A stretch of DNA of 13,498 nucleotides from Gemmatimonadota bacterium (GTDB taxonomy: Bacteria > 4572-55 > J002), in contig RFFQ01000023.1 of the NCBI GenBank assembly GCA_003697105.1, forward strand, positions 1-13,498. The letters run 5' to 3'. The notes below the pieces were generated by a model. It was not told the DNA's origin and ran no database searches. It worked only from the letters and a program-made list of their open reading frames with translations. Position 1 is the stretch's first letter. Every line of letters begins with the position of its first letter. Made by a program: the position numbers and the translations under genes. Positions 1-13,148 of this stretch are shown here, one piece after another.

Positions 1-557
1 GGAAAACATGCCGTTTCTGTTAATAGCTCAAAAATCTGCTCCCGATCGACTCCTTCCTGAAGTATTTCCACTAACCGGGTTTTGCCCCGTACTACTTTAG
101 GCCAGGGTGTGTCTAACAGATGATTACTCAAACCGTACACCCCTGGTTCCAGTCGCTTGATTGTATTTTCCCGATTGGAAAAATAGCCCATTTCCTTACC
201 ATCAAAGACGATCAGGTTAAATCCATTATATTGACTAGCGACGGATTTTACATACTGGAGTGCCTCCCGAGCAGGACGGTTGTCTTGTAAAACGTTCAGG
301 GGTAATTCTCCCCGAGATCGTTCGCCCGCCTGTTCCGTATGAGGGTCGCGATAATTGGTCAATGCGGCAAATTGCCTAGTTTTGGTGACTGCCAACCATG
401 TACCCCCAGCTTGTAAATCGCGCCCAGCAAATATCCCCGGATAATCCTCCCAAAAGTGGGCAGGAGCGGTAGGTCGATCATAAAATTCATCTCGATTAGC
501 GGCGACAACCAGGTCAAATTGGGGATGATAGCGGTACGCAAACAGAATCAGACACAT
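1..557 (-). CDS. TANGO2/NRDE-family protein, 3' end cut by window edge
   Basis: The reading frame is open from an ATG at 557-555 to the left edge, giving 185 residues of a family that is usually about 250-270 long, so the C-terminus is missing. The N-terminus begins MCLILFAYRYHPQFDLVVAA and continues with the name-giving NRDEFYDRPT motif (residues 21-30). Later landmarks are GGTWLAV (about 53-59) and GLSNHLLDTPWPKV (about 141-154), all typical of PF05742. The family is linked in eukaryotes to TANGO2 and haem/lipid metabolism; the bacterial role is not settled. Cys2 would become N-terminal after Met removal and could act as an Ntn-type nucleophile, which is inference. It is the last visible gene of the operon: its ATG lies one base after the channel gene's stop, and its Shine-Dalgarno (AAGGA) sits inside the end of that gene. 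Translational coupling is likely. Confidence 0.9.
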   Translation of the reverse strand, partial: MCLILFAYRYHPQFDLVVAANRDEFYDRPTAPAHFWEDYPGIFAGRDLQAGGTWLAVTKTRQFAALTNYRDPHTEQAGERSRGELPLNVLQDNRPAREALQYVKSVASQYNGFNLIVFDGKEMGYFSNRENTIKRLEPGVYGLSNHLLDTPWPKVVRGKTRLVEILQEGVDREQIFELLTETACF

Positions 558-558
558 T

Positions 559-1581
559 TTATCCTTGAAAATCTGGAGGATGGCACAAAGCGAATTCCTC
601 GGGTGTAATGAGGTTGTGCTGAAGGAATTCCATGATGATGGTTTCCGTCATATCACTCATAAAAGGGAATTCATAGCGGATGTCGAATACATACGCTTTT
701 AGTCGCATCTTGATGATTGAGCGTCCCTGATGAATCTCATTTTTGAAGATCACACGGATCGGCTTGTTGAGGTAAATATAGCGGGAAACTGCCGCCGCCC
801 GGTATGCCAGCTTGCGGGCTCGTACCAAATCAATATGTGCCGGCAGATAAATCTCGGCAACCACCTGACAGTTGGATTCCCCCGCATTGGCATTGGAGAC
901 TGATTGATTCATAATTTCCCCATTGGGGATCGAAACCAACGAGTCATCCGGGGTGACAATGCGTACCGACCGTAGCCCAATTTGCTTGACCTCGCCGTAG
1001 TAATTGTTAATCTCAATTTTATCACCCACTTGGAATGGTCGATCAAACAGAATCATAATTCCACCAAAAATGTTTTTCAGAATATCTTGAGAGGCGAAGC
1101 CAACGGCTAAGCCTGTAGAAGCACCCACCGCCAGCAACGTTTCCACCGGTGGGGAAAACACCCTCGTAATAATCAGATAAATAACCAACATCCATGCCAG
1201 AATCCGAAATACAGGAATAATTCCTTTGATGGTCAACCGGAGATTTGTCCACCGCTCAGAAATAGCTTCCAATAGTTGGGTCAGGGCTTGGATCAGAAAA
1301 AACGCCAGAATAAAAATAGCCGTAGCCCAAAAAATTTTGCCGTAGGGGATGGAAATCACCGGTTTGGCATCTTTCATTTTTTTGGTGATGGGAGGGGCTT
1401 CCGCGGGGGGTTGTGATGCAGAGATCGCTGGCGTGGGGGCAGAATCTATGACGCTGGACACCGTATCGGCAAACTTAACGTTACGGGTTATGGCATCCAC
1501 TTGTAAGGTCTCCTGTGCCTCGGTGATGCTTACTCCGACGACCGTCAACAGAATAATAATCCAACCAAATGGGTATTTCAT
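559..1581 (-). CDS. MscS-family small-conductance mechanosensitive channel
   Basis: This 340-residue membrane protein should open a pore under membrane tension and release solutes during osmotic downshock. Residues 4-22 form a hydrophobic signal peptide or anchor, and about 30-80 is a Ser/Pro/Ala-rich linker. Membrane helices lie at about 83-107 and 123-143, followed by the Gly/Ala-rich pore helix at about 146-170 (VGASTGLAVGFASQDILKN). The beta domain contains FDRPFQVGDKIEI (179-191) and the conserved SIPNGEIMNQSVSN (217-230); an alpha/beta cytoplasmic end follows. Both landmark stretches are hallmarks of MscS. The start is supported by AGGA seven bases upstream, which overlaps the stop of the preceding ATPase gene; the gap is 8 bp, so the two are co-transcribed. 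The length is closer to YnaI-like paralogues than to E. coli MscS. I assign only the family, not a specific paralogue. Confidence 0.92.
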   Translation of the reverse strand: MKYPFGWIIILLTVVGVSITEAQETLQVDAITRNVKFADTVSSVIDSAPTPAISASQPPAEAPPITKKMKDAKPVISIPYGKIFWATAIFILAFFLIQALTQLLEAISERWTNLRLTIKGIIPVFRILAWMLVIYLIITRVFSPPVETLLAVGASTGLAVGFASQDILKNIFGGIMILFDRPFQVGDKIEINNYYGEVKQIGLRSVRIVTPDDSLVSIPNGEIMNQSVSNANAGESNCQVVAEIYLPAHIDLVRARKLAYRAAAVSRYIYLNKPIRVIFKNEIHQGRSIIKMRLKAYVFDIRYEFPFMSDMTETIIMEFLQHNLITPEEFALCHPPDFQG

Positions 1582-1589
1582 GGTGGGTC

Positions 1590-4500
1590 CTAATGTAGGA
1601 TGTTTTGTATTTTCAGTGCTCGTACAATCGGACGGTACAAAAATGGATGAATACGGTAATAGGTCTTATGCCGGATGACGATCCCAGATTGTTCCATCCG
1701 ATTTAGCATGAGGGCGCTATACTGGAGTTCAAACCGGAACACCCGCGCAGTTTCATCAATACTTAAATTTTCGTGTTGGAGCAAGGCAGCTAATATAAAC
1801 AGTTCGTCTACTGTGAGTTGGTATAAAAAAGAATGATCAAAATCAACAAGGGGCGATACCACTAATTTGTCTTCGGTATTTTTTTTAATAGATCGTTGCC
1901 AGAACAGCATAGCTACGGTGATGTTACTTGCTGCCACGTCGTTTAGTTGGTGAAAAAAGATGTCTTCAAGATAATGTTGCTGTTCTTCTTCAGAGCGCAA
2001 CCGCCTGAATTTACGGGTATTTGCTATTGTTGGGGGGACTTCATAAACCAACTGGTAGCCGCTGGCACGATTCCGGCGCAGAATAATTTCTTTAATTTCT
2101 GCGGTTGCCATGATTTCCATGTGGATGACACGACGAAAATAGGTGGAGATGTGAATCACTTTGTCCAAATATTGCCAACTGTAGAGCGTGCAGCAAAGTA
2201 ACCAGTGGATTCGGGATTGGGTCTTTGTGATGAACAGTAAAAAGGACTCTAACGCTTCAAATCCATCAATCGTGCGTAAGAACATATTTTGGATATTCTC
2301 AAAAATGCAAACCATACTCTCATCTCGCGCTAAAATGCGAGCTTCAAGTTCGTTCAGGTTTTGGGCATCAGGTTCTTTCAACGCCCGTTTCAAATGCTCC
2401 AGAAGTTTCGTTTCCGTATAGACCGTGTTATCCAATCGCACTTTGACGACTGTCGTTTCCTGAAAAATCTGTTTGGCGGCAAAATTGAGCAAACTGGTTT
2501 TTCCGCTCCCTTTTTCGCCCACCACGGCGGTCAACTTGGGTTGTCCCGCTTGCCATGCTTCAAAATCCGTTTGAAGACGCACCATTTCCGCTCTACGACC
2601 CACAAAAAAACGCTCATCGCGTAGTGGCTCGTTGCGGAATAACCGCTGGTATACATACGGTAGGTGTTTAATTCGTTGAGTGGTTTCGTTGAGAAATTGT
2701 GCGATTCGTTCGCCCACATTTTCCGGGGTTGGGGCAAGTCCGGTGATTTTTTTCAGGTGGACAATGCGGGTCTGCAACGTCGTCAACGCGTTTTGGCTAT
2801 ACCGGATGAACGTATTGATGGTATGAGGAATGCCCTGTGTTAGGGTAGTCCACACGTGCTGGTAATAACGATGGAACTGTTCTTCAGCCTGGATCCGGGC
2901 AATTCGTAGTTGAATTTCCAAAATACGTTCGTCATCGGCTAAAGCCAGAATCTGCCGCCCAAAACTCACGGAGCGTTTGCAGAAAAAATGATTGCTCTGC
3001 TGGACAATCTGCTGGCAGTGTTCGATGATGGTATCCAATTGCTTTATGGCGCGTTCTAATCCTTCTACGGCGATTTTTTGGGCGTCATCAAATGCTTCGA
3101 TATTGGTACGTTGTCGCCGCAACAGAGTCAGTGCCGCTTCCAGGTTGAATTCGACAATTTGGTCGGTCTCGGAGATGTCGCGTAGGATATGTTCCACATG
3201 CGTTTGCACCGTTTGCATAAACACCTGATGTTCCTGAGCCAGCTCACGGAATATTTTATCTTCCACCAATTGTTTGAGTGCCACATTTTCCACTTTGGAG
3301 CGGGGTGGAATGTGTTCTAAATCTCTTTCTTTGAAGATGGTGTGGTTTTCGGATACAATCTCCAGCGCATTTTTGGCGCGATATGCATATTCCTGAAGAA
3401 AGCGATCCACCTGCGCCTGAAGCAGACTGTCAATCATCAAAGGCAATTTTTCATCGCGTAACGTTTTTAGCAATGTTCGATTTTCGCTTAAAATATGACG
3501 ACGCAACGCGAGTTTATCTTCTGTATCGACATTCGTAAACGTGGCTAAGGATTGCGCCAGAAGTGCCTTCACCTCACGGAAAATAGGGGTAAGTTGAGTC
3601 TCCATTTTGGATTGCACGGTCTCGAACGTCTTTAAGCTCAATTGCGAAATTCGGAATTGTAACAAAAGCAGTTCTAAATCCTTTTGCCACTCCTCTATTT
3701 CGCCATTCCAGTGGGTTTGCCACGCGGTTTGATCCTGCTGGAACTGTTTGTTCAGCGTATTCCAGTGAGATTGGAGGCGTTTGGCATCAAACATTTTTTC
3801 CGGTAGGGCAAATGTTCCGGCGTATGGCCACTGACGTTTCACTTCCGTTACCCGGGCTTCCCAAGCGGTATACACCTGATCCAACGCATCCACGATGAAT
3901 GTATCCAGTTGGATGATACATTCTTCAATGGTTGTCAAATGATGTTCTAATATTTTCCATTTCTGATCACGTGCTTCTCGGCTTGGTGTTAAACCGGACG
4001 TTTCAATTTCGGATAAAAATAGGAATGCTGTTTTGGTTTCCTCGCTGATTTGATGAAACTGGTAGAGGTGTTGGGCGATGAGGTGCATCAAGCGTTGCCA
4101 TTCATGGTAAAGGCATTCTGCAAACGGATATTCAAGGGTGAAGCGGAGAAAATGGTGCAAATGAAAAGTACGTGTATCGGGAGGTATCTCCTTTTTCGGG
4201 TGGCGTCTGATCCATTGTAGTATTCGATGGTGTTCTTGCCGTAGCCGGTACCGGAATGCTCGGTAGGTTTTCCATAGCCGGACGGGCACAGCATCGGTGG
4301 GGTCACGGTTCCAAAACGTGGGTGGGATTTCTAACGTGATGGTTTCGGGAACGGTCTCTAACGTTGTGCGGAATGTTTCCTGCCACAAGCCCCACACCTG
4401 ATCCGGGGTACTCGTGGCCAGCTCGGAATGCAGATTCTTGACCCATTCCTGAAATTGTTTGACCATGTATTCTTGTTCGCGCCACAAGTTGGTCGATGGG

Positions 4501-4670
4501 GTGTCAGGGCGTTCGGTTTGGCGGCGCCGTTCGAGATTTTCATGGAGTAGCTCAATGTACCGGTTTACCTTATCTTTGTAAGGATTGCGCCACGCCGAAA
4601 GCAACTTTTTAGCCGTTGCTTCGGCAACCTCTTGAAACGGACGTACATACTGGGTCGGGGTTGTCGGCAT
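1590..4670 (-). CDS. Large coiled-coil P-loop (AAA/STAND-like) ATPase with C-terminal winged helix
   Basis: The product is 1026 residues from the ATG at 4670 (MPTTPTQYVRPFQ). The open frame extends to 4781, but that extension contains a TTGACG-18-TACAAT promoter, so the inner start is preferred. Numbered from this start, residues 1 to about 680 are almost entirely charged, helix-forming sequence rich in Gln, Glu and Leu, consistent with long coiled coils. An ATPase domain follows: FFVGRRAEM (about 688-696), Walker A GEKGSGKTS (718-726, Lys724) and a Walker-B-like strand VCIFENIQ (787-794). Residues about 950-1018 look like a winged-helix domain (LTVDELFILAALLQHENLS, then LNRMEQSGIVIRH). No signal peptide or membrane helix is seen, so it is cytosolic. 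The Walker B carries Glu-Asn where Asp-Asp/Glu is usual. It is the first gene of an operon with a MscS channel and an NRDE protein. Its function is unknown; control of the channel is a hypothesis. Confidence 0.85.
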   Translation of the reverse strand: MPTTPTQYVRPFQEVAEATAKKLLSAWRNPYKDKVNRYIELLHENLERRRQTERPDTPSTNLWREQEYMVKQFQEWVKNLHSELATSTPDQVWGLWQETFRTTLETVPETITLEIPPTFWNRDPTDAVPVRLWKTYRAFRYRLRQEHHRILQWIRRHPKKEIPPDTRTFHLHHFLRFTLEYPFAECLYHEWQRLMHLIAQHLYQFHQISEETKTAFLFLSEIETSGLTPSREARDQKWKILEHHLTTIEECIIQLDTFIVDALDQVYTAWEARVTEVKRQWPYAGTFALPEKMFDAKRLQSHWNTLNKQFQQDQTAWQTHWNGEIEEWQKDLELLLLQFRISQLSLKTFETVQSKMETQLTPIFREVKALLAQSLATFTNVDTEDKLALRRHILSENRTLLKTLRDEKLPLMIDSLLQAQVDRFLQEYAYRAKNALEIVSENHTIFKERDLEHIPPRSKVENVALKQLVEDKIFRELAQEHQVFMQTVQTHVEHILRDISETDQIVEFNLEAALTLLRRQRTNIEAFDDAQKIAVEGLERAIKQLDTIIEHCQQIVQQSNHFFCKRSVSFGRQILALADDERILEIQLRIARIQAEEQFHRYYQHVWTTLTQGIPHTINTFIRYSQNALTTLQTRIVHLKKITGLAPTPENVGERIAQFLNETTQRIKHLPYVYQRLFRNEPLRDERFFVGRRAEMVRLQTDFEAWQAGQPKLTAVVGEKGSGKTSLLNFAAKQIFQETTVVKVRLDNTVYTETKLLEHLKRALKEPDAQNLNELEARILARDESMVCIFENIQNMFLRTIDGFEALESFLLFITKTQSRIHWLLCCTLYSWQYLDKVIHISTYFRRVIHMEIMATAEIKEIILRRNRASGYQLVYEVPPTIANTRKFRRLRSEEEQQHYLEDIFFHQLNDVAASNITVAMLFWQRSIKKNTEDKLVVSPLVDFDHSFLYQLTVDELFILAALLQHENLSIDETARVFRFELQYSALMLNRMEQSGIVIRHKTYYRIHPFLYRPIVRALKIQNILH

Positions 4671-4709
4671 GGATAATCTCTTGCCAGAAGTTGGGGTTTG
4701 GTTTGTATA

Positions 4710-4739
4710 ATTGTACTTGATCTTTTCAGAAGTCGTCAA
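4710..4739 (-). promoter_or_regulatory. Sigma70-type promoter of the ATPase-mscS-NRDE operon
   Basis: On the minus strand, -35 TTGACG (4739-4734) and -10 TACAAT (4715-4710) are separated by 18 bases. The predicted transcript would start near 4703 and carry a leader of about 33 bases before the ATG at 4670. The elements lie inside the longest possible reading frame of the ATPase gene, which argues against that longer start. Confidence 0.7.
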
Positions 4740-4781
4740 GCAAAATAGGGGCGTTGGCACCGTTACACGAAATGTAAACAC

Positions 4782-4817
4782 AAAAAAGTGATGGCCTGCC
4801 GGATGACCATCACTTTT
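4782..4817 (-). terminator. Intrinsic terminator after ribE
   Basis: A perfect 11-bp inverted repeat (AAAAGTGATGG at 4784-4794 with CCATCACTTTT at 4807-4817) encloses a 12-base loop. Read on the minus strand it runs into six Ts (4787-4782). It lies 53 bases past the ribE stop and before the ATPase promoter, so it separates the two units. The opposite strand has only four Ts and may terminate weakly. Confidence 0.85.
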
Positions 4818-4869
4818 GAATTGCCTTGTACTGTGGAGGGCGTCCGAATCGTTTAATACCGGGTTAATT

Positions 4870-5508
4870 TCACGAGTATCCTAAAGTTTTTAGTTTTTCC
4901 AAGGTGAGGGTCTGAGATTTAGGGGTACCGAGTAAGCGCTCGATATATTTGCCCAAAATATCCACCTCAATATTCACCTGATCCCGTATGTGGAGTTGCC
5001 CGAGTGTGGTTTGATCGAGGGTATAGGGAATGAGCGAAACGGTAAATTGTTCTGGTGTAAGGTGGGCGATGGTCAAACTTACCCCATCGACCGTAATGGA
5101 GCCCTGTTCCACCACGTAACGCATCCATTTGGGGTCTATTCGGATTGAAAAAAGGGTACTGCTGGCACGTTCCCGCCGCTCAACTACGGTTCCCACACAA
5201 TCCACGTGTCCGGCAACGATGTGCCCGCCGAAGCGATCCCCCACCGCTAGGGCACGTTCCAAATTGACCCGGCTACCCGGCCGTAAATTGCCCAACGTTG
5301 TTTTTTGGAGGGTTTCTTCAACCGCTTGCACCGTGAATGTGGTTGCCTGACGTTCGATTACCGTTTGGCAAGCTCCATTGACGTTGATGCTGTTATCGAT
5401 CTGTAAATCTTCCAAAACAGCGCGGGCTGAGATGGTGATTCGCCGGGAACCCCCTTGCGGTTGCACGTGTTGCACCATGCCCACTTCTTCAACCAGTCCA
5501 GTAAACAT
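4870..5508 (-). CDS. ribE: Riboflavin synthase, alpha subunit
   Basis: This enzyme converts two 6,7-dimethyl-8-ribityllumazines into riboflavin and a pyrimidinedione, the last step of vitamin B2 synthesis, in the cytosol. The 212-residue protein shows the expected duplicated lumazine-binding barrels, about 1-97 and 98-190. It starts with the canonical MFTGLVEEVG. Domain 1 has INVNGACQTV (41-50) and DRFGGHIVAGHVD (91-103); domain 2 has GSITVDGVSLTIA (136-148) and NIEVDILGKY (about 179-188). A longer frame opens at 5565, but the extra 19 codons overlap the -10 box, and AGGAG lies eight bases before the chosen ATG. The other rib genes are not adjacent and no FMN riboswitch fits in the short leader, so it is a single-gene unit. 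Confidence 0.96.
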   Translation of the reverse strand: MFTGLVEEVGMVQHVQPQGGSRRITISARAVLEDLQIDNSINVNGACQTVIERQATTFTVQAVEETLQKTTLGNLRPGSRVNLERALAVGDRFGGHIVAGHVDCVGTVVERRERASSTLFSIRIDPKWMRYVVEQGSITVDGVSLTIAHLTPEQFTVSLIPYTLDQTTLGQLHIRDQVNIEVDILGKYIERLLGTPKSQTLTLEKLKTLGYS

Positions 5509-5553
5509 GATCAATACTCCTGCAAAAATGAGTAAAGAAGAATGTGTTCGTTC

Positions 5554-5583
5554 AGTATATGCCAAAAATCCGATTCAAGTCAA
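5554..5583 (-). promoter_or_regulatory. ribE: Sigma70-type promoter of ribE
   Basis: On the minus strand, -35 TTGACT (5583-5578) and -10 TATACT (5559-5554) are 18 bases apart, close to consensus. The transcript would start near 5547, leaving a leader of roughly 38 bases. It faces away from the PilZ operon promoter at 5647-5675, and the 63 bases between the two are the only space for an operator. Confidence 0.75.
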
Positions 5584-5646
5584 CAGTAAACCGCGGTGAT
5601 ATGGCGTCCTGAAAAGGAGAGACTGTCCAAAATACCTGAAAAATTC

Positions 5647-5675
5647 TTGACAAGGGTGACACGGTAATGTAAAAT
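5647..5675 (+). promoter_or_regulatory. Sigma70-type promoter of the PilZ-ruvB-kinase operon
   Basis: A consensus -35 TTGACA (5647-5652) and -10 TAAAAT (5670-5675) are spaced 17 bases apart. This is the best promoter seen in the window and suggests strong constitutive expression. The -10 overlaps the ATG of a longer PilZ reading frame at 5674, which rules that start out. Confidence 0.85.
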
Positions 5676-5724
5676 GCGACAACCTTCGCTAACTTTTGGC
5701 TTTTATGAAAGGGAGAATAGTTCC

Positions 5725-6099
5725 ATGAATGTTCCTACCGGGGTAGAGCGTCGTCGGTATAAGCGCGTTCCGCTTCAAAACGTTATTATTGAGCTATCCC
5801 CGCCGACGGATGGCAAGAAATACACCGGAATGATCCGGGACATTAGTTTGGGCGGAATGTTGATCGCCTTTGAAACGCAACCGCCTAAGCCGGACGAATT
5901 CGCCCATGTTACGTTCATCTTACCCAGTGCGGGGGTGTTTTCTTATATTAAAATGCAAGTGATGCGCGAAACACGGGATAAAGAAGGGTTGTATGCGCTA
6001 GGGCTTGAGTTTGTAAACTTAAATGCCGAAGATCGTGCTAAACTGGAACGCTTTTTTCAGAATCACGCCAACTATTATAACCAACAGGATGAATCCTGA
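5725..6099 (+). CDS. PilZ-domain protein, probable cyclic di-GMP receptor
   Basis: This is a 124-residue single-domain PilZ protein. It shows both halves of the c-di-GMP binding signature: RxxxR in ERRRYKR (Arg10 and Arg14) and DxSxxG as DISLGG (39-44). Strand residues follow through ALGLEFVNL (about 91-99), with a C-terminal helix. Binding of c-di-GMP is therefore expected; the output partner is unknown. The ATG at 5725 follows AAGGGAGA by nine bases. The frame also opens at 5674, but that ATG lies in the -10 box. It is the first gene of an operon; ruvB starts 11 bases after its stop. The kinase downstream makes a signalling link plausible but unproven. Confidence 0.92.
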
Positions 6100-6110
6100 C
6101 GAGGTGTTTC

Positions 6111-7145
6111 GTGAACGATTCCGAACGGCTTACCACGCCGGATAAATTAACCGGTGATACAGACCTTGAGATTACCCTCCGCCCCCTTCGCTTAGATGAT
6201 TTCACGGGTCAGGAAAAGATCAAGGAAAATCTAAAAATTTATATTCAGGCGGCAAAAGGGCGCGGGGAAGCCCTTGACCATCTGCTTTTTTACGGACCGC
6301 CCGGGCTGGGTAAAACGACGTTAGCCGCCATTATTGCCAAAGAGATGGGAGTCAATATCAAATCGACTTCCGGTCCCGTCATCGAACGCCCGGGAGACCT
6401 CGCCGGAGTATTGACCAATCTCCGCAAAGGGGATGTCCTGTTTATTGATGAAATTCACCGCTTGAATCATGTGGTGGAGGAATATCTCTATTCCGCCATG
6501 GAAGATTTCACCCTTGATATTATGATTGATAAGGGTCCCAACGCGCGTTCGGTCAAACTCAACTTGGAACCCTTTACCTTAGTGGGTGCTACCACCCGCG
6601 TGGGATTACTTACCTCACCGTTGCGCGCTCGCTTCGGGGTGATTAATCGTCTGGATTATTATGATCCGCCCGATTTGCAACAGATTGTTATGCGCTCCGC
6701 GAAAGTGTTGGGGGTGGGTATTACCGCGGACGGGGCACTCGAAATCGCGCGGCGTTCTCGGGGGACACCCCGTATTGCCAATCGATTTTTGCGCCGCGCT
6801 CGGGATTATGCCCAAGTCATCGCCGATGGCGTCATTACCAAAGAGATTGCCCACCAGACATTGCAAATGCTCGAAGTGGATCAGGAAGGTCTGGATGAAA
6901 TGGATCGCCGCTTGATCTTAGCGATTATTGAAAAGTTTAGCGGGGGTCCGGTCGGGGTAAAAACCGTCGCGGTGGCCGTTGGTGAAGAACCGGACACCAT
7001 TGAAGAAGTCTATGAGCCGTATTTGATTCAAAAAGGGTTTTTAAAACGCACTCCGCGGGGACGTGAGGCGACACCTTATGCCTATGATTATTATGGGATT
7101 CCGCGGTCTGAAGAGACCAATCAACTGTCATTCTTGGCATCTTAA
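6111..7145 (+). CDS. ruvB: Holliday junction branch-migration helicase RuvB
   Basis: RuvB is the hexameric AAA+ motor that, with RuvA, drives branch migration of Holliday junctions during recombinational repair. At 344 residues it has the normal length. It begins at GTG 6111, with GAGG a few bases upstream. Motifs in order are [12 protein letters not shown] (23-34), Walker [10 protein letters not shown] (62-70), Walker B FIDEIHRL (111-118), sensor 1 around VGATTR (158-163) and the arginine-finger segment TSPLRARFG (168-176). The C-terminal winged-helix domain (about 262-330) includes [15 protein letters not shown] and ends with [11 protein letters not shown]. ruvA and ruvC are not in the window. 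Sitting between a PilZ gene and a histidine kinase gene is unusual company, with gaps of 11 and 32 bases. Confidence 0.98.
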
Positions 7146-7163
7146 GCGATAGCGAGTTGTCCT

Positions 7164-7170
7164 AAGGAGG
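7164..7170 (+). promoter_or_regulatory. Shine-Dalgarno deciding the TTG start of the kinase gene
   Basis: AAGGAGG lies exactly seven bases before TTG 7178, and no in-frame ATG is near. This supports the rare TTG initiation codon and retention of the arginine-rich N-terminal tail. Confidence 0.85.
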
Positions 7171-7177
7171 TAATCCG

Positions 7178-8875
7178 TTGGAAGAAAATAATGTAACGCG
7201 CCGTAGACCTTCAGGGCGCCGTCGCCCGCCAGGAATAGATGTCCCGCGTCATAGACGCCGGTACACCGACCATCTGGTGGAAAAAGCCCATAAAAAGACA
7301 ATTCTGTTGGTGGATGATGACCCGCTGGTGCGAAGTGCCATGAAAATGGCGATTTCCGATGATTATAATGTCCTTGAAGCCGAAGATGGCTATCAAGGGT
7401 TGGAAGTACTACGAAATCATGTTTCGGAAATCCAATGTGTGGTCACGGATATTCGGATGCCGGGTTTAAATGGTTCGGAGTATATGGCAAAAGCCGGAGA
7501 AGTCACCCAAGATGTCTATTTTGTGATTGTCACCGGGCATAAAGGGGAAGTGACCGAATCTAAATTGATCAGTGATGGTAGTGGGCGGCTAAGCGGCTTT
7601 CTGGAAAAGCCAATCTCCAATGATGAACTCAAATACCAGATTCAAAAAGCGGTTGAATTAACTCAAATTCAACAGGATCGCGCCCGGGCAAATTACAATG
7701 CCCAACAATTAGTCGAAGCTGTAGAGACGATCTATGCCGCCACCAATGAAGATGAACTCTTACAGTTGATCATTGATAATGTCTCGCGTTTTATGTCTGT
7801 GAAAACCGCGTTTTGGGCACTGGCAGACTCGCGGAATAACTTGTTGATCCGGGGCGGGTCAGACCGATTTAGCGGGCTGATCGGTGACCCCATTGAAGGC
7901 AATCCCAACCTCCGGTCTGCGGATGTGGAAGCTGTCCGCAAAGCAATTGAAGAAGATACTGTCACGGAAAATGAGCATATTATGGCATTGCCCCTGTATA
8001 ATGGCGTGATTTTGCTCTTTGGTAATCCTCTGATCGATGCACGAGATAAAAATTTTATCCGAACGTATGTCCGCAATGCGGAACAGGCACTGGAACGCAT
8101 GCATCTTTACGAAAAATTGAAAGATGCCAATACCAAACTCACCCAGTTGGATAAAATGAAAACGAAATTCACGGATATTATCTCCCATGAATTGCGCACA
8201 CCGTTGGCGTCCATGAAAGGGTATCTCTTTTTGCTGGACGTTCAAGCGCGCCCCAAACTGGATGAGGAAACGACCCAAAGTTTAGAAATTATCAATAATT
8301 GCACCAACAAACTGGTGGCTATCGCCAATGATGTGACCAACTTATCGCGTTTGACCTCTGCGGAAATCAAATTACGCTTAACCACTATCAATTTGGCGCA
8401 ATTGTTTCAGGATATTCAGAAAGAGGTCGAGTTATTCATCAAATACCGGAATCAAGTGTTTCAGACCCATATTGAAGAAGGATTGGTTAACATTGTGGGA
8501 GACCAAGAGGGGATTTCACAAGCGATCAAAAACTTGATTATGAATGCCATCAAGTTTACTCCAGATGGGGGAACGATCTCTTTGAAAGCACGTCAAACCA
8601 CTTCCACTTACGAAATTCAAGTATCCGATACCGGAATTGGTATTCCGGAGAGTGAATTTGAGAATATCTTTTCTGGGTTTTATGAAGTCGGAGACACCAG
8701 TTATCACCATTCTGGCACGTTTGAGTTCAAAGCTGGCGGGTTAGGCTTAGGATTGCGGATTGTCAAAAGCATCGTCAGTGCGCATGGCGGGGATGTCCGC
8801 GTAGAAAGTGAATTGGAAAAAGGCTCTACGTTCACCCTTCTTTTGCCGAAAACAATAACCCCCGCGGCAACTTAA
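7178..8875 (+). CDS. Soluble hybrid histidine kinase: Arg-rich tail, REC, GAF-like, HisKA, HATPase
   Basis: The protein has 565 residues and begins at TTG 7178, supported by a perfect AAGGAGG seven bases upstream. Residues 8-28 are strongly basic (10 Arg in 21). A receiver domain follows (about 41-160) with acidic pocket VDDD (45-48), phospho-acceptor Asp91 in VVTDIRMPG, Thr119 and Lys144 (FLEKP). Residues about 170-310 resemble a GAF-type sensor. The H box is SHELRTPLASMKGY (336-349, His337). The ATPase has an N box around Asn456, G1 DTGIGIP (484-490) and G2 GGLGLGLRIVKS. No membrane segment is visible, so it should act in the cytosol. With the receiver at the N-terminus, it may be switched by an upstream kinase or phosphorylate its own receiver. 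No separate response regulator lies in the window. It is the last gene of the PilZ-ruvB operon. Confidence 0.93.
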   Translation: MEENNVTRRRPSGRRRPPGIDVPRHRRRYTDHLVEKAHKKTILLVDDDPLVRSAMKMAISDDYNVLEAEDGYQGLEVLRNHVSEIQCVVTDIRMPGLNGSEYMAKAGEVTQDVYFVIVTGHKGEVTESKLISDGSGRLSGFLEKPISNDELKYQIQKAVELTQIQQDRARANYNAQQLVEAVETIYAATNEDELLQLIIDNVSRFMSVKTAFWALADSRNNLLIRGGSDRFSGLIGDPIEGNPNLRSADVEAVRKAIEEDTVTENEHIMALPLYNGVILLFGNPLIDARDKNFIRTYVRNAEQALERMHLYEKLKDANTKLTQLDKMKTKFTDIISHELRTPLASMKGYLFLLDVQARPKLDEETTQSLEIINNCTNKLVAIANDVTNLSRLTSAEIKLRLTTINLAQLFQDIQKEVELFIKYRNQVFQTHIEEGLVNIVGDQEGISQAIKNLIMNAIKFTPDGGTISLKARQTTSTYEIQVSDTGIGIPESEFENIFSGFYEVGDTSYHHSGTFEFKAGGLGLGLRIVKSIVSAHGGDVRVESELEKGSTFTLLLPKTITPAAT

Positions 8876-8904
8876 CCTCCACATCCGGCTTTCGCAATTA
8901 GCGA

Positions 8905-8937
8905 CGCTCGGTGGTGGATATCATCGGGCGATTTTTT
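8905..8937 (+). terminator. Intrinsic terminator after the kinase gene
   Basis: The arms CGCTCGGTGGT (8905-8915) and ATCATCGGGCG (8920-8930) pair over 11 positions, counting three G-U wobbles, with a GGAT loop. One A and six Ts follow (8932-8937). It lies 29 bases past the kinase stop, so it most likely ends the PilZ-ruvB-kinase transcript. Because a small ORF and thrS follow directly, partial read-through is also possible. Confidence 0.8.
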
Positions 8938-8957
8938 ATTAGGTAAGGAGACCGTAT

Positions 8958-9056
8958 ATGCTGTATCCCAAAGACCCCATTCAGGAGTTTGCGATGGCTT
9001 GTCACCATGCTGGTGGCAACCATCGCCGTTTAACCTCCTCCCCAAACAGAATTTGA
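8958..9056 (+). CDS. Small ORF (32 codons) upstream of thrS, possible leader peptide
   Basis: ATG 8958 to TGA 9056 encodes a 32-residue peptide starting MLYPKDPIQEFAMACHHAGG and ending in a Ser-rich tail. The start has a strong Shine-Dalgarno, AAGGAG at 8945-8950, at ideal spacing. The peptide resembles nothing I recognise, has no membrane segment and contains only one Thr codon, so it is not a classical threonine attenuation peptide. It ends 48 bases before the thrS start. Its second half coincides with a long hairpin (8991-9026), so ribosome movement through it would melt that structure. No promoter is obvious between the terminator at 8905-8937 and this ORF. It could be a regulatory leader, a genuine small protein, or a chance frame behind a good ribosome site. 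Confidence 0.45.
   Translation: MLYPKDPIQEFAMACHHAGGNHRRLTSSPNRI
8991..9026 (+). promoter_or_regulatory. Long RNA hairpin in the thrS upstream region
   Basis: The arm GCGATGGCTTGTCACCA (8991-9007) pairs with TGGTGGCAACCATCGC (9011-9026) over 16 positions. There is one bulged C (8998) and one wobble, with a TGC apical loop that probably opens to five bases. No T tract follows, so it is not a terminator on the plus strand. It lies wholly inside the small ORF at 8958-9056, about 80 bases before thrS. A regulatory or RNA-stability role is inferred. Confidence 0.6.
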
Positions 9057-9067
9057 ATTTAACTCCC

Positions 9068-9073
9068 TATACT
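9068..9073 (+). promoter_or_regulatory. thrS: Possible -10 element for thrS
   Basis: TATACT lies 32 bases before the thrS ATG and would start a transcript near 9080. No convincing -35 is found 16-18 bases upstream, and no extended -10 TG is present. It is only a candidate, but it is the sole promoter-like element seen between the terminator at 8905-8937 and thrS. Confidence 0.3.
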
Positions 9074-9104
9074 AACACTTTCAGTATTTGAGGTGAAAAC
9101 GAAC

Positions 9105-11051
9105 ATGAATAAATGGATTAACATCACGCTCCCGGATGGTAGCGTCCGCGAATTTGAAGCCGGTGTCACGGGAATGGATATTGCCAAGCGTATCAGCAAA
9201 AAGCTGAAAAAAGCCGCCATTGCCGCCAAAGTCAATGGTGTCGTCGTCGATTTGTCGCGTCCCATTGAGCAAGATGCAACGGTGGAAATTTTAACCTTTG
9301 ATGACCCGGAAGGGCGGGAGGTATATCGGCATTCCTCCACACATATTATGGCGCAGGCGGTAACGGAGCTGTTCCCAGAGGCAAAACCGACCCTGGGACC
9401 GCCGCTGGATGATATGTTCTATTATGATTTTGATGTCCCAAAACCCTTCACTCCAGAGGATTTAGCCGCCATTGAAAAACGTGCCAACCATATCATCAAA
9501 CAAAATTTGGAGTTCAAACGATTTGAACTGTCCCGTGAGGAAGCTCTAAAATTTTATCACGAACGGGTGCCCAATCATTACAAGTGTGAAATTATTGAGG
9601 ACTACCCGGAAGAAGAAACGTGGTCGTTCTATCAACAGGGGGATGGTGAGAACGGCTGGGTGGATATGTGCCGCGGACCGCATGTCCCCTCCACTGGGCG
9701 GATCAAGCAATTCAAAATTTTGAAGGCCTCGGGCGCGTACTGGCGCGGTAATGAAAACAACAAAATGTTGCAACGCATCTACGGCACGGCATACGAATCA
9801 AAAGAACAATTAGAAGCACATTTGCACCGGCTTGAAGAGGCGGAAAAACGAGACCACCGCCGGCTCGGGCGTGAACTCGACCTGTTTAGTTTCCACTCTG
9901 AAGATGCCGGCGCCGGTTTCGCCTACTGGCACCATAAAGGCGCCCTGATCCGGGAATTGGTGGAAAACTTCCTCAAGGAAGAACAGCGGAAACGGGGGTA
10001 TATCTTTGTGGTCAGCCCGCATGTGGTCTCGGCGGAACTTTACAAAACCAGCGGGCACTACGAATTTTTCCGGGATAACATGTATCCGGTGGAGATCGAA
10101 GGGGAGGAGTATTTCATCAAACCGATGAATTGCCCCTGCCACGTGAAGATTTTTGATACCAAATTGCACAGCTACCGCGATCTACCTGTGCGCATGGCAG
10201 AGTTCGGCACGGTCTATCGCTATGAAAAGAGCGGGGTGTTGCATGGCTTGCTCCGTGTACGCGGCTTTACTCAGGATGATGCCCACATCTTTTGCACGGA
10301 AGACCAACTGGACTCGGAAATTCGAGGCGTGATGGATTTGATGGAGTTCATCATGCAGAAATTCGGCTTCCACGAGTATAAAGTCGAACTGAGCGTTGCC
10401 GACCCCAATGATTGGAGCCATTACGCCGGTGAACCGGCCGAGTGGGAGCGGGCGGAACACTCCCTCGTCCAAGCCCTACGCGCCAAAAATTGGGAGTACA
10501 CACGGCACGAAGGCGAAGCGGCATTCTACGGTCCCAAAATCGACCTCAAAGTGGTTGATGCCCTTGGGCGCCCGTGGCAATGCAGTACGGTGCAGTTCGA
10601 TTTTAACCTGCCGCGGCGCTTTGGCTTAAAATACATTGGTTCGGACGGCGAAGCCCACATGCCTTATATGGTGCACCGTGCGATCTATGGCTCGGTGGAA
10701 CGCTTTATCGGGGTGTTGATCGAACAGTACGGCGGTGCCTTTCCCACGTGGTTGGCGCCCACGCAGGTTGTTGTTGCGACAATCACGGATGCTGTGAACG
10801 ACTATGCCCAGTCCGTTGTCCAACAACTGCATGATGCCGGCTTTCGCGTTCATTTGGATGACCGCAATGAAAAAATCGGCTATAAAATCCGTGAACATAC
10901 CACGCAAAAAGTGCCGTATATTCTGGTGGTGGGGCACAAAGAGGCTGAAGCCGGTCAGGTTGCCGTGCGTAAATATGGCGCGGGTGACCAAGGCGTAATT
11001 GCCTTCACGGAATTTCTAGCCGCACTGAACGCCGAAGTCGAAACCGTGTGA
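9105..11051 (+). CDS. thrS: Threonyl-tRNA synthetase
   Basis: The product charges tRNA-Thr and edits mis-charged Ser-tRNA in the cytosol. The 648-residue length is normal for the full-length bacterial form. Domains in order are TGS (about 3-63, ITLPDGSVREFE), then the editing domain with HSSTH (His76, His80) and DMCRGPH (Cys189, His193). The class II core has zinc ligands Cys343 (MNCPCH), His394 (DDAHIF) and His524 (MVHRAIYGS). Motif 2 is around RMAEFGTVYRYE, motif 3 is around GSVERFIGVLIEQ, and the C-terminal anticodon-binding domain spans about 540-648. A GTG at 9093 is in frame, but it lies inside the Shine-Dalgarno GAGGTG (9090-9095), so ATG 9105 is chosen. The familiar thrS-infC-rpmI-rplT arrangement is absent here: thrS stands alone and is followed by a strong terminator. 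Confidence 0.98.
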   Translation: MNKWINITLPDGSVREFEAGVTGMDIAKRISKKLKKAAIAAKVNGVVVDLSRPIEQDATVEILTFDDPEGREVYRHSSTHIMAQAVTELFPEAKPTLGPPLDDMFYYDFDVPKPFTPEDLAAIEKRANHIIKQNLEFKRFELSREEALKFYHERVPNHYKCEIIEDYPEEETWSFYQQGDGENGWVDMCRGPHVPSTGRIKQFKILKASGAYWRGNENNKMLQRIYGTAYESKEQLEAHLHRLEEAEKRDHRRLGRELDLFSFHSEDAGAGFAYWHHKGALIRELVENFLKEEQRKRGYIFVVSPHVVSAELYKTSGHYEFFRDNMYPVEIEGEEYFIKPMNCPCHVKIFDTKLHSYRDLPVRMAEFGTVYRYEKSGVLHGLLRVRGFTQDDAHIFCTEDQLDSEIRGVMDLMEFIMQKFGFHEYKVELSVADPNDWSHYAGEPAEWERAEHSLVQALRAKNWEYTRHEGEAAFYGPKIDLKVVDALGRPWQCSTVQFDFNLPRRFGLKYIGSDGEAHMPYMVHRAIYGSVERFIGVLIEQYGGAFPTWLAPTQVVVATITDAVNDYAQSVVQQLHDAGFRVHLDDRNEKIGYKIREHTTQKVPYILVVGHKEAEAGQVAVRKYGAGDQGVIAFTEFLAALNAEVETV

Positions 11052-11091
11052 GTCACCCTCTCCCCCAAAAGTTCATAACCGGTCTATAAGC

Positions 11092-11125
11092 CCCGGTCTC
11101 GTGCGATAGCGAGACCGGGTTTTTT
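11092..11125 (+). terminator. Intrinsic terminator after thrS
   Basis: A perfect 10-bp GC-rich stem (CCCGGTCTCG at 11092-11101 with CGAGACCGGG at 11110-11119) has an eight-base loop and is followed by six Ts (11120-11125). It begins 41 bases after the thrS stop and isolates thrS from ddl. Confidence 0.95.
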
Positions 11126-11258
11126 ACTTGATAATTTTAGGGGATTGGTTTATTCTAAACCCAGTTTTGCAACCTTGAAATCGCGACTCGAAGAAAAAAA
11201 CGCATGGCGTTACAAGAATGAGTTTATATTGCATCTATTTTGATTGAGGTGGCGGGAT

Positions 11259-12356
11259 ATGAGCCAAATTCGGGTTGGAATTCTTTTTGGCGGGCGCTCC
11301 GCTGAGCATGAAGTCTCGTTGCAATCGGCGAGAAATGTGATTAATGCACTCGATCGCACTCAATATGAGCCGGTACTGATCGGGATTGACAAAACGGGAC
11401 GCTGGTATTTATACGATGAGGCGAATTATCTGTGCCATGCCACAGACCCCAAGCGAATCCAACTGAATACCTCGAATCAGGAGGTGATGCTCGTGCCGGG
11501 TGGGAGCGAGAGCCTCCTGATCCGGTTGGATGAACCTTCGCTCTCCCAGCGGGTGGATGTCGTTTTTCCGGTGTTGCACGGAACATACGGTGAAGATGGC
11601 ACCGTGCAGGGGTTGCTCAAGCTGGTGAATGTGCCGTTTGTGGGGGTAGATGTGCTGGCAGCGGCGGTCTGTATGGATAAAGAGGTCACGAAACGCCTCC
11701 TGCGGGATGCTGGCATCCCCAACGCGGATTTTTTGACCTTTCGCCGGTACCAAAGGACAACGATCGATTACCGGCAGGTAACGGAACGGCTGGGAACCCA
11801 TTTGTTCATCAAACCGGCAAATTTGGGGTCGTCCGTCGGGATTCGTCGTGCCCGCAATGAAGACCAATTTTGGCAGGCGGTTGATCTGGCATTTGAATAT
11901 GATACCAAGCTCATTGTGGAGCAGGCTATCCCAGGGCGGGAGATTGAAATTGCCGTGCTCGGTAATGAAAATCCCATTGCCTCTCTACCGGGCGAGGTCA
12001 TCTCCCCGGATTTTTATTCCTACGAGGCAAAGTATATCACCGACGAATCAACCCTGCATATTCCAGCGGAGCTACCAAAAGAGACTATTCAGCGCCTGCA
12101 AGAGCTGGCGACCCGGGTGTTTCGGGTATTGGAGTGCGAAGGTATGGCGCGGGTGGATTTCTTTCTGCAACCGGATGGCACGTTGCTGGTCAACGAGGTT
12201 AATACCATTCCGGGTTTTACCCCGATCAGCATGTATCCCAAGTTGTGGGCCGTGAGCGGGCTGGCGTACCCCGACCTTATTGATCGCTTGATTCAACTGG
12301 CAATTGAGCGGCATCAACGGGACCAACAATTGAAAACTACCTTTTCCGTGATGTAG
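11259..12356 (+). CDS. ddl: D-alanine--D-alanine ligase
   Basis: This ATP-grasp enzyme joins two D-alanines in the cytosol for peptidoglycan precursors. The 365 residues match the longer DdlA-type enzymes. Motifs are GGRSAEHEVSL (11-21), HGTYGEDGTVQG (107-118), FIKPANLGSSVG (183-194), YEAKYI (255-260), and ARVDFF through NEVNTIPGFTPISMYP (297-326). The metal ligands are Asp300, Glu313 and Asn315. The AKY segment fits a D-Ala-D-Ala rather than a D-Ala-D-lactate ligase. A TTG at 11244 is in frame, but ATG 11259 has GAGG nine bases upstream and gives the family N-terminus. A weak -10-like TATATT (11225-11230) without a clear -35 is the only promoter hint in the gap after the thrS terminator. The membrane protein gene downstream starts six bases after its stop. 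Confidence 0.97.
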   Translation: MSQIRVGILFGGRSAEHEVSLQSARNVINALDRTQYEPVLIGIDKTGRWYLYDEANYLCHATDPKRIQLNTSNQEVMLVPGGSESLLIRLDEPSLSQRVDVVFPVLHGTYGEDGTVQGLLKLVNVPFVGVDVLAAAVCMDKEVTKRLLRDAGIPNADFLTFRRYQRTTIDYRQVTERLGTHLFIKPANLGSSVGIRRARNEDQFWQAVDLAFEYDTKLIVEQAIPGREIEIAVLGNENPIASLPGEVISPDFYSYEAKYITDESTLHIPAELPKETIQRLQELATRVFRVLECEGMARVDFFLQPDGTLLVNEVNTIPGFTPISMYPKLWAVSGLAYPDLIDRLIQLAIERHQRDQQLKTTFSVM

Positions 12357-12362
12357 GCAGTT

Positions 12363-13148
12363 ATGACATCGTATCATTTTTTCCAGAGTTTATGGCACTC
12401 GTTTTATGATGCTGACTTTTACCGCGAAATTGGGCAACGAGGGCAGGGGTGGGGGCTGTTACATCTCTTTTTAGTGCTCAGCCTCTTCTGGATTCCTCAA
12501 TTGATTCATCTCCAACAGGACTTTGTCAATGAGATCGGCGCGGAAGCCGAACAATTTTTCCAGCAAGTCCCGGCGATTGTCATTTCAGACGGCACCGTGT
12601 TGATCAATGAACCCATGCCCTACCGAATTCAAGTCTATAATCCGGTGGAAAATGACACCTTGATTGTCGTCATTGATACCAGCGGCACTTACACCGACCC
12701 GGATCAACTCAACGCTAAACTGCTGTTGACCAAACACGAACTGATCGTCAAGCAGAGTGAGAGCGAGACCCAACGCTATAATTTGCAAGAGATCGAGACG
12801 TTTATCATCAATGAGCACCGGATGCGAGAGTGGTTTAAGGCATTCCAAACTTGGTTTGCGGTGTTTATGTATCCCTTTTTGGTGTTTGCGTCCTACATCT
12901 TCCGGTTAGCAGAGGCATTTTTACTGGCGTGGGGGGCGCACCTTTGGGTCAAACCCGATATGCTGGCGTATCGCACTCTTGTGCGTCTGATGATTGTTTC
13001 TCTCACACCGGTGATTATCATCAAAACCCTACTTTCGGTGGTTGGGATTCCGCCGGTATTTTGGTTGATGTTTCCGATCACGGTTGGGTATTATCTATTT
13101 GCGTTACGAGCCAATCTGGAAGCCCCGCCACAGTCCGCCAACCCCTAA
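12363..13148 (+). CDS. DUF1189-like integral membrane protein
   Basis: The 261-residue product opens with an aromatic amphipathic stretch FFQSLWHSFYDADFYREI (6-23), like the start of DUF1189 (PF06691) proteins. A first membrane helix lies at about 30-48. A soluble region of about 110 residues (about 50-158), probably outside the membrane, includes paired beta-like segments (VISDGTVLINEPMP, LIVVIDTSGTY). Three or four further helices follow at about 164-196, 207-226 and 230-249. Its function is unknown. The start is ATG 12363; the ribosome site is weak (AGG overlapping the ddl stop), suggesting translation coupled to ddl. Co-transcription with ddl hints at an envelope role but does not prove it. 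The family call rests on overall layout and the N-terminal motif. Confidence 0.75.
   Translation: MTSYHFFQSLWHSFYDADFYREIGQRGQGWGLLHLFLVLSLFWIPQLIHLQQDFVNEIGAEAEQFFQQVPAIVISDGTVLINEPMPYRIQVYNPVENDTLIVVIDTSGTYTDPDQLNAKLLLTKHELIVKQSESETQRYNLQEIETFIINEHRMREWFKAFQTWFAVFMYPFLVFASYIFRLAEAFLLAWGAHLWVKPDMLAYRTLVRLMIVSLTPVIIIKTLLSVVGIPPVFWLMFPITVGYYLFALRANLEAPPQSANP

Follow-up and report, generated by a model that had tools for sequence, protein, structure and literature searches.

The AAA-like gene and the mscS gene directly behind it almost certainly form a dedicated functional partnership, which we describe here from a window of 13,498 nucleotides (the whole stretch of DNA analyzed) and from its relatives in several phyla. 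Among the 77 distinct loci that could be evaluated, the AAA-like gene is followed directly by an MscS-family gene on the same strand in 70, and the reciprocal search, started from the channel, led back to the AAA-like gene in 8 of 8 cases. These counts bear out the conserved ATPase-like/MscS partnership proposed in a first-pass annotation of this DNA. A role of the pair in ion or osmotic homeostasis is very likely, and probably the two genes encode a dedicated ion-efflux system in which the 1026-aa protein is the cytosolic regulatory subunit of its own MscS protein. To our knowledge, nobody has studied the AAA-like partner.

Gene order and expression signals

Sequence and open reading frames of the window place three co-directional genes on the minus strand, namely the AAA-like gene, mscS, and a TANGO2 gene. 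The first two are separated by 8 bp (1582 to 1589) and the last two by 1 bp (558), and Shine-Dalgarno-like AGGA/AAGGA sequences overlap both upstream stop regions, ahead of mscS and of TANGO2. Upstream lies a sigma-70-like promoter on the same strand (TTGACG-18-TACAAT, 4710 to 4739), assigned by consensus match only; 0.3 promoter-like sites would be expected by chance in the promoter/terminator stretch. A terminator-like hairpin (4784 to 4817, minus strand) at the end of the upstream riboflavin synthase-like gene sets that gene apart from the operon. The AAA-like gene starts with ATG at 4670 and its frame closes at 1590 (1026 aa). This ATG is the better start because the longer GTG-started frame, which extends to 4781, would include the promoter, and the GTG start is therefore disfavored. 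Spacing, embedded ribosome-binding sites, and single promoter all agree with the three-gene operon described earlier. The rest of the window (4870 to 13148) is ordinary, with Pfam matches to riboflavin synthase-like, PilZ, RuvB, hybrid response regulator/kinase, ThrS, D-Ala-D-Ala ligase, and DUF1189 proteins.

The TANGO2/NRDE gene (3 to 557, minus strand; PF05742, E 4.9e-60) is presumably cotranscribed, judging by its position. It runs off the contig, and its remainder lies on contig C146, which shares a 99-bp overlap with the window contig; behind it on C146 no further gene was called on the same strand. It had been put forward as a third partner, a proposal that does not hold: TANGO2 occurs in 0 other homologue loci, and we rejected it as a conserved part of the system.

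Conservation of the AAA-like/mscS pair

Homologues were sought with profiles over sampled whole genomes and, once, in named GTDB contigs, and the counts describe this sample and are not a census; many of the sampled genomes are MAGs, and classes were assigned with small home-made profiles. The named phyla bearing homologues were Calditrichota, KSB1, Bacteroidota, Balneolota, Ignavibacteriota, Acidobacteriota, and Myxococcota, with two further homologues in Pseudomonadota (Novosphingobium), where the MscS pairing also holds. We examined 80 distinct loci in detail (81 rows, with L035 and L052 being the same locus), of which 77 could be evaluated and the rest were cut by contig ends; L086, L108, L124, and L132, cut by contig ends, were not counted.

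In the 70 paired loci the median gap was -1 bp, with frequent overlap. At one further locus (G001; 1/77) the MscS gene is adjacent but divergent, and at the remaining 6 of 77 the MscS neighbor is absent: C169 of the window genome, L114, and four Nannocystis loci. All six are linked to CPA antiporters, since C169 and L114 are antiporter-fused and each Nannocystis copy precedes a Na_H_Exchanger gene (called by Pfam at L066 and by similarity at the other three). The apparent exception L122 carries its MscS inside a longer, mis-started reading frame (Pfam E 1.3e-17). One large phylum had one to four copies of the module in 103 of 282 genomes, and an MscS gene was present at 29/29 evaluable loci. 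Clustering of the neighbors of free-standing loci showed that only the AAA-like gene and mscS recur throughout, the next families being confined to few loci or one clade. This tabulation across phyla decisively contradicts the possibility that homologues occur mostly without MscS.

The reciprocal test compared a profile of the partner MscS with 386 genomes at a cut-off of E <= 1e-50, and its 8 matches all lay directly behind an AAA-like gene. They included those of G048 and G119, whose AAA genes the sequence search had hardly or never seen. Chance adjacency is negligible because the window genome holds only 8 MscS-domain genes in 4.2 Mb. Furthermore, in a maximum-likelihood tree the MscS partners of the free-standing and TM-anchored classes grouped in a single clade (99/90) that excluded the other MscS proteins of the same genomes, and patristic distances of 69 AAA/MscS pairs correlated at r = 0.82 against a permutation maximum of 0.28, with classes cosegregating. 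It is important to consider that linkage and mirrored trees are evidence of co-inheritance and functional linkage and not in themselves of contact or gating.

Searches of IMG/VR and of phages gave no matches to indicate viral origin or spread, and plasmid copies were limited to two Novosphingobium megaplasmids. In the Bacteroidota loci L047, L048, and L060, a conserved trio of genes lies near the free-standing pair (at L047, in a region of ~3-6 kb upstream of the ATPase gene), encoding a protease-like protein, a RimK-like ATP-grasp protein, and a succinylglutamate desuccinylase/aspartoacylase-like protein.

Architecture of the 1026-residue protein

The product of the AAA-like gene (1590 to 4670, minus strand, as are all its parts below) belongs to the free-standing class and is annotated here as an AAA-like regulatory protein. 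The only Pfam matches were to P-loop families of the AAA_16/AAA_22 type at residues ~690-830 (PF13191, E 8.5e-10). An AlphaFold (AF2) model built on 26 homologues (mean pLDDT 86.1, pTM 0.52) predicts a stretch of ~650 residues made of long helices and a single beta-hairpin, followed by an AAA+ domain and a winged helix. Both the P-loop and the winged helix reported earlier are thus recovered by Pfam and by the modeled fold.

According to hhalign and AF2 secondary structure, the N-terminal helical domain (residues ~1-665; 2676 to 4670) is homologous to the linker domain of antiporter- and SLC12-fused relatives (probability 99.5, E 2.5e-23, 497 columns), where it sits between the transporter and the AAA part. 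Alignments and AF2 place a conserved spot within it at residues ~443-510 (3141 to 3344), a beta-hairpin and helix with the pattern VALKQLV...VEFNLEAAL. The first-pass annotation had described a giant coiled coil; the helices stand, but the generic coiled coil gives way to a specific conserved domain. We rejected generic coiled coil as the cause of the N-terminal similarity, since the profile match spans 497 columns and includes specific conserved motifs. An LPxxYxRLF motif (residues 670-678; 2637 to 2663), mostly invariant within the free-standing class, stands directly ahead of the P-loop domain. At the C terminus, a winged-helix-like domain (residues ~947-1021; 1608 to 1832) gave a weak MarR match and completes an AAA+ plus winged-helix fold of the Orc1/Cdc6 type. 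Residues ~668-1016, the span covered by the VIA-align comparison, were closest to Orc1/Cdc6 (Foldseek E 6e-8 to 1w5t; VIA Z ~16 to ORC/Cdc6 chains), followed by TnsC and NSF-D2 and, lower in the list, by the STAND proteins Apaf-1 and CED-4.

Decay of the nucleotide-binding motifs

The Walker A motif of the window protein is intact (GEKGSGKT, residues 718-725, 2496 to 2519; consensus GxxxxGK[ST]). The Walker B position reads VCIFEN (residues 787-792; 2295 to 2312) and departs from hhhhD[DE], with Asp changed to Glu and the catalytic acid to Asn. Of the 31 free-standing homologues, 14 retain the Walker A lysine and 17 have lost it, and the catalytic (second) acid of Walker B survives in 2 and is lost in 29. 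The group labeled "MscKlike" (12 TM-anchored loci plus the antiporter-like L135) keeps the Walker A lysine in 12/13 and a canonical DD or DE in 9/13. The relatives in G048 (L165, 2358-3578) and G119 (L166, 1-1488) are shortened or degenerate AAA-like winged-helix proteins directly before MscS, an apparent pseudo-ATPase end state; the P-loop is degenerate in G119, and in G048 it is absent along with most of the helical domain.

Consequently, ATP hydrolysis is not the conserved core function, because most free-standing homologues have degenerate Walker residues and G048 lacks the P-loop. Nucleotide binding by the window protein may survive, to judge from its motifs. The earlier description as an ATPase is therefore upheld for the P-loop fold and weakened for an energy-driven enzyme; as far as these sequences tell, "ATPase" is an overcall for this protein class.

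The MscS protein and the transporter-fused relatives

The channel gene (559 to 1581, minus strand) encodes 340 aa with a putative signal peptide, three TM helices, a canonical pore helix, and beta and alpha/beta domains. Its MS_channel beta-domain and adjacent TM3 pore helix, seen by Pfam (PF00924, E 1e-22; PF21088 partial), pore-helix alignment, and AF2, place it in the MscS family, and the best PDB match of its AF2 model was EcMscK (7uw5, E 6e-15), with further matches to MscS and YnaI structures. In the alignment, the pore helix is canonical in MscS partners of the free-standing and TM-anchored classes and altered in those of the antiporter (CPA) and SLC12 classes, where W, R, and D appear (e.g., WSxRD and WFAIRD). 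Since the pore helix is altered, the MscS-like proteins of the latter classes may not conduct.

Two additional copies of the module occur in the window genome. One (C169) is a CPA-type antiporter fusion, whose antiporter domain is not called by Pfam and matches a profile of Pfam-confirmed fusions; in the other (C144), the MscS-like gene overlaps an AA_permease/SLC12-AAA fusion gene by 4 bp. Both kinds of fusion, to Na_H_Exchanger and to AA_permease/SLC12 domains, recur in other genomes according to Pfam and profiles. A third fused class is TM-anchored, with a signal peptide, a long coiled coil, and ~5 TM helices ahead of the AAA part. A profile of its N-terminal part found no MscK match among PDB sequences; the likeness lies in layout only, and MscK ancestry of the class drew no support from these sequences. 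TrkH, usually accompanied by TrkA, adjoins 14 of the 21 CPA fusions as well as 3 free-standing loci, and the frequent position of CPA fusions behind trkH and trkA points to a K+/osmotic context.

Several loci deserve separate description. In the SLC12-type cotransporters that carry the helical and AAA module as a fusion (L014, 5444-10591 with 4677-5447; L015, 3633-8807), the partner is a small, divergent MscS-like protein with W and R/D in the pore helix, which may be a nonconducting sensor. An NB-ARC/TPR STAND-type gene lies beside the SLC12-AAA and MscS genes of G001 (L015, 9914-12814). The antiporter-AAA fusion of the window genome (L013, 6729-11363) has no MscS neighbor and is followed by gyrA, and the 160-aa gene upstream (P0009) had no significant Pfam match. 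A membrane protein family overlaps the start of CPA-AAA fusions (L114, 6570-7799; L115, 271-1638; L126, 6395-7501; L112, 137-1654), with relatives at L040, L127, L065, and L041; its L114 copy matched no Pfam family at E 0.05. The Nannocystis loci (L066-L069, 6062-8137 with 8162-10414) encode a 690-aa version, behind which one or two antiporter genes take the place of MscS, an arrangement like an unfused antiporter fusion; the antiporter at L066 combines Na_H_Exchanger with Usp.

Proposed function and alternative explanations

We consider it probable that the two products bind each other and that, within this complex, the MscS protein is regulated or read out by the AAA-like module, and we infer both the contact and the direction of control. 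The MscS-family protein would be a heptameric tension-gated pore, and the AAA and winged-helix module would dock, along with the helical domain, on its cytosolic face (the cage) and set its opening, adjusting gating to the cytosolic state; candidate ligands are a nucleotide, K+, or ionic strength. ATP or ADP binding in the window copy would be at most a switch, with hydrolysis unlikely to be needed. In the fused forms, the MscS-like protein could act as a sensor of turgor or ionic strength whose state the module relays to a transporter output, either a K+(Na+)/H+ antiporter or a cation-chloride cotransporter; a periplasmic-coiled-coil/TM anchor takes this place in the third related form. The task of the pair would be K+/osmolyte release and turgor homeostasis. 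The cytosolic cage of MscS can be regarded as a protein-binding surface, since the cytosolic domain of Escherichia coli MscS has been reported to bind FtsZ (PMC4440785).

A scaffold or assembly factor, a long helical protein that positions or clusters MscS (and transporters) with no control of gating, is an unlikely alternative to such regulation. The length of the helical domain and the reported FtsZ binding (PMC4440785) fit it, as do the degenerate catalytic residues of most free-standing homologues and the missing P-loop of G048. However, the AAA plus winged-helix fold is retained, and the AAA part looks essential because G048 drops most of the helical domain while this fold stays.

The same winged helix, its weak MarR-like matches, and the DNA-binding Orc1/Cdc6 and TnsC-like fold neighbors could instead suit a transcription regulator or signal reporter that binds DNA and reads the state of the channel. 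We hold this quite unlikely, as the module sits inside integral membrane proteins in the transporter-fused and TM-anchored classes, a poor layout for a DNA regulator, and STAND-type proteins carry a winged helix without binding DNA. A STAND-like antiphage or stress-suicide system, in which a trigger perceived by the AAA-like protein would lead it to open the MscS pore and so depolarize or kill the cell, could draw on the AAA_16/AAA_22/nSTAND-type P-loop module, the NLR and Apaf-1 structures lower in the fold list, and the NB-ARC/TPR gene adjoining the G001 relative, but it is highly improbable, and a defense system was rejected on context (Trk, antiporter, and SLC12 neighbors, not defense genes), on PADLOC (no family with a meaningful score; best E 0.002, over the P-loop), and on distribution (no phage and almost no plasmid homologues, with long conserved co-inheritance), while its P-loops decay rather than stay intact.

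Beyond the regulated two-gene efflux system, we only tentatively advance a broader reading, an undescribed and widespread ion-homeostasis machine built around an ORC/STAND-like pseudo-ATPase module that links tension sensors of the MscS type to efflux, with the own MscS pore, K+/H+ antiporters (with Trk), and cation-chloride cotransporters as its routes.

We know of no earlier regulated mechanosensitive-channel complex in bacteria, and, if this broader reading is true, the machine would be the first and would join turgor sensing directly, at the molecular level, to K+ transport. A partner gene almost never found apart from its channel in several phyla, together with fusions to K+/Cl- transporters, implies that these valves are controlled or used as sensors in many bacteria. 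The pattern points to an undescribed control of ion release and cell turgor and would give a function to a family seen annotated only as "AAA family ATPase." Thus, the long-standing question of how turgor sensing reaches K+ transporters becomes testable with two genes taken from a cultured organism.

Comparison with known systems

MscS channels are textbook valves gated by membrane tension alone, and MscS and MscK are single-gene channels. The window MscS shares the MscS beta-domain, the three-helix TM region, and the canonical pore helix with MscS, MscK, and YnaI, EcMscK being its best structural match, whereas in the pair described here a dedicated AAA-like gene precedes the channel. In MscK, a periplasmic regulator is part of the same chain, and external K+ is needed (PMC9653487).

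We found no description of the AAA-like/MscS pair or of the transporter-helical-AAA architecture in the open-access literature, and in Novosphingobium pentaromativorans US6-1 each gene of the pair has its own annotation, "AAA family ATPase" for the one and "mechanosensitive ion channel family protein" for the other. Orc1/Cdc6, TnsC, NSF-D2, and STAND proteins share the AAA+ plus winged-helix fold with the window protein, at an identity of only about 12-17%. In contrast to Orc1/Cdc6, TnsC, and STAND proteins, the window protein has no replication, transposition, or immunity context, its catalytic residues are degenerate, and it adds an apparently novel N-terminal helical domain and membrane-transport partners.

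In Trk/Ktr and Kef, a K+ transporter is likewise accompanied by a cytosolic nucleotide-fold protein, as a neighbor or as a fusion, and TrkH and TrkA are real neighbors of many CPA fusions. However, regulation here would fall to an AAA plus winged-helix fold instead of a Rossmann KTN/RCK domain, and the partner is of MscS type; Pfam matches in the module were to AAA and winged-helix families only, with KTN/RCK (TrkA_N) absent. Prokaryotic SLC12 cotransporters and CPA Na+/H+ antiporters correspond to the N-terminal domains of the fused relatives, which, unlike ordinary members of these families, add the long helical domain, the C-terminal AAA/winged-helix module, and an MscS-like gene behind. 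By comparison with these systems the pair is best described as an MscS system with a new, probable regulatory subunit.
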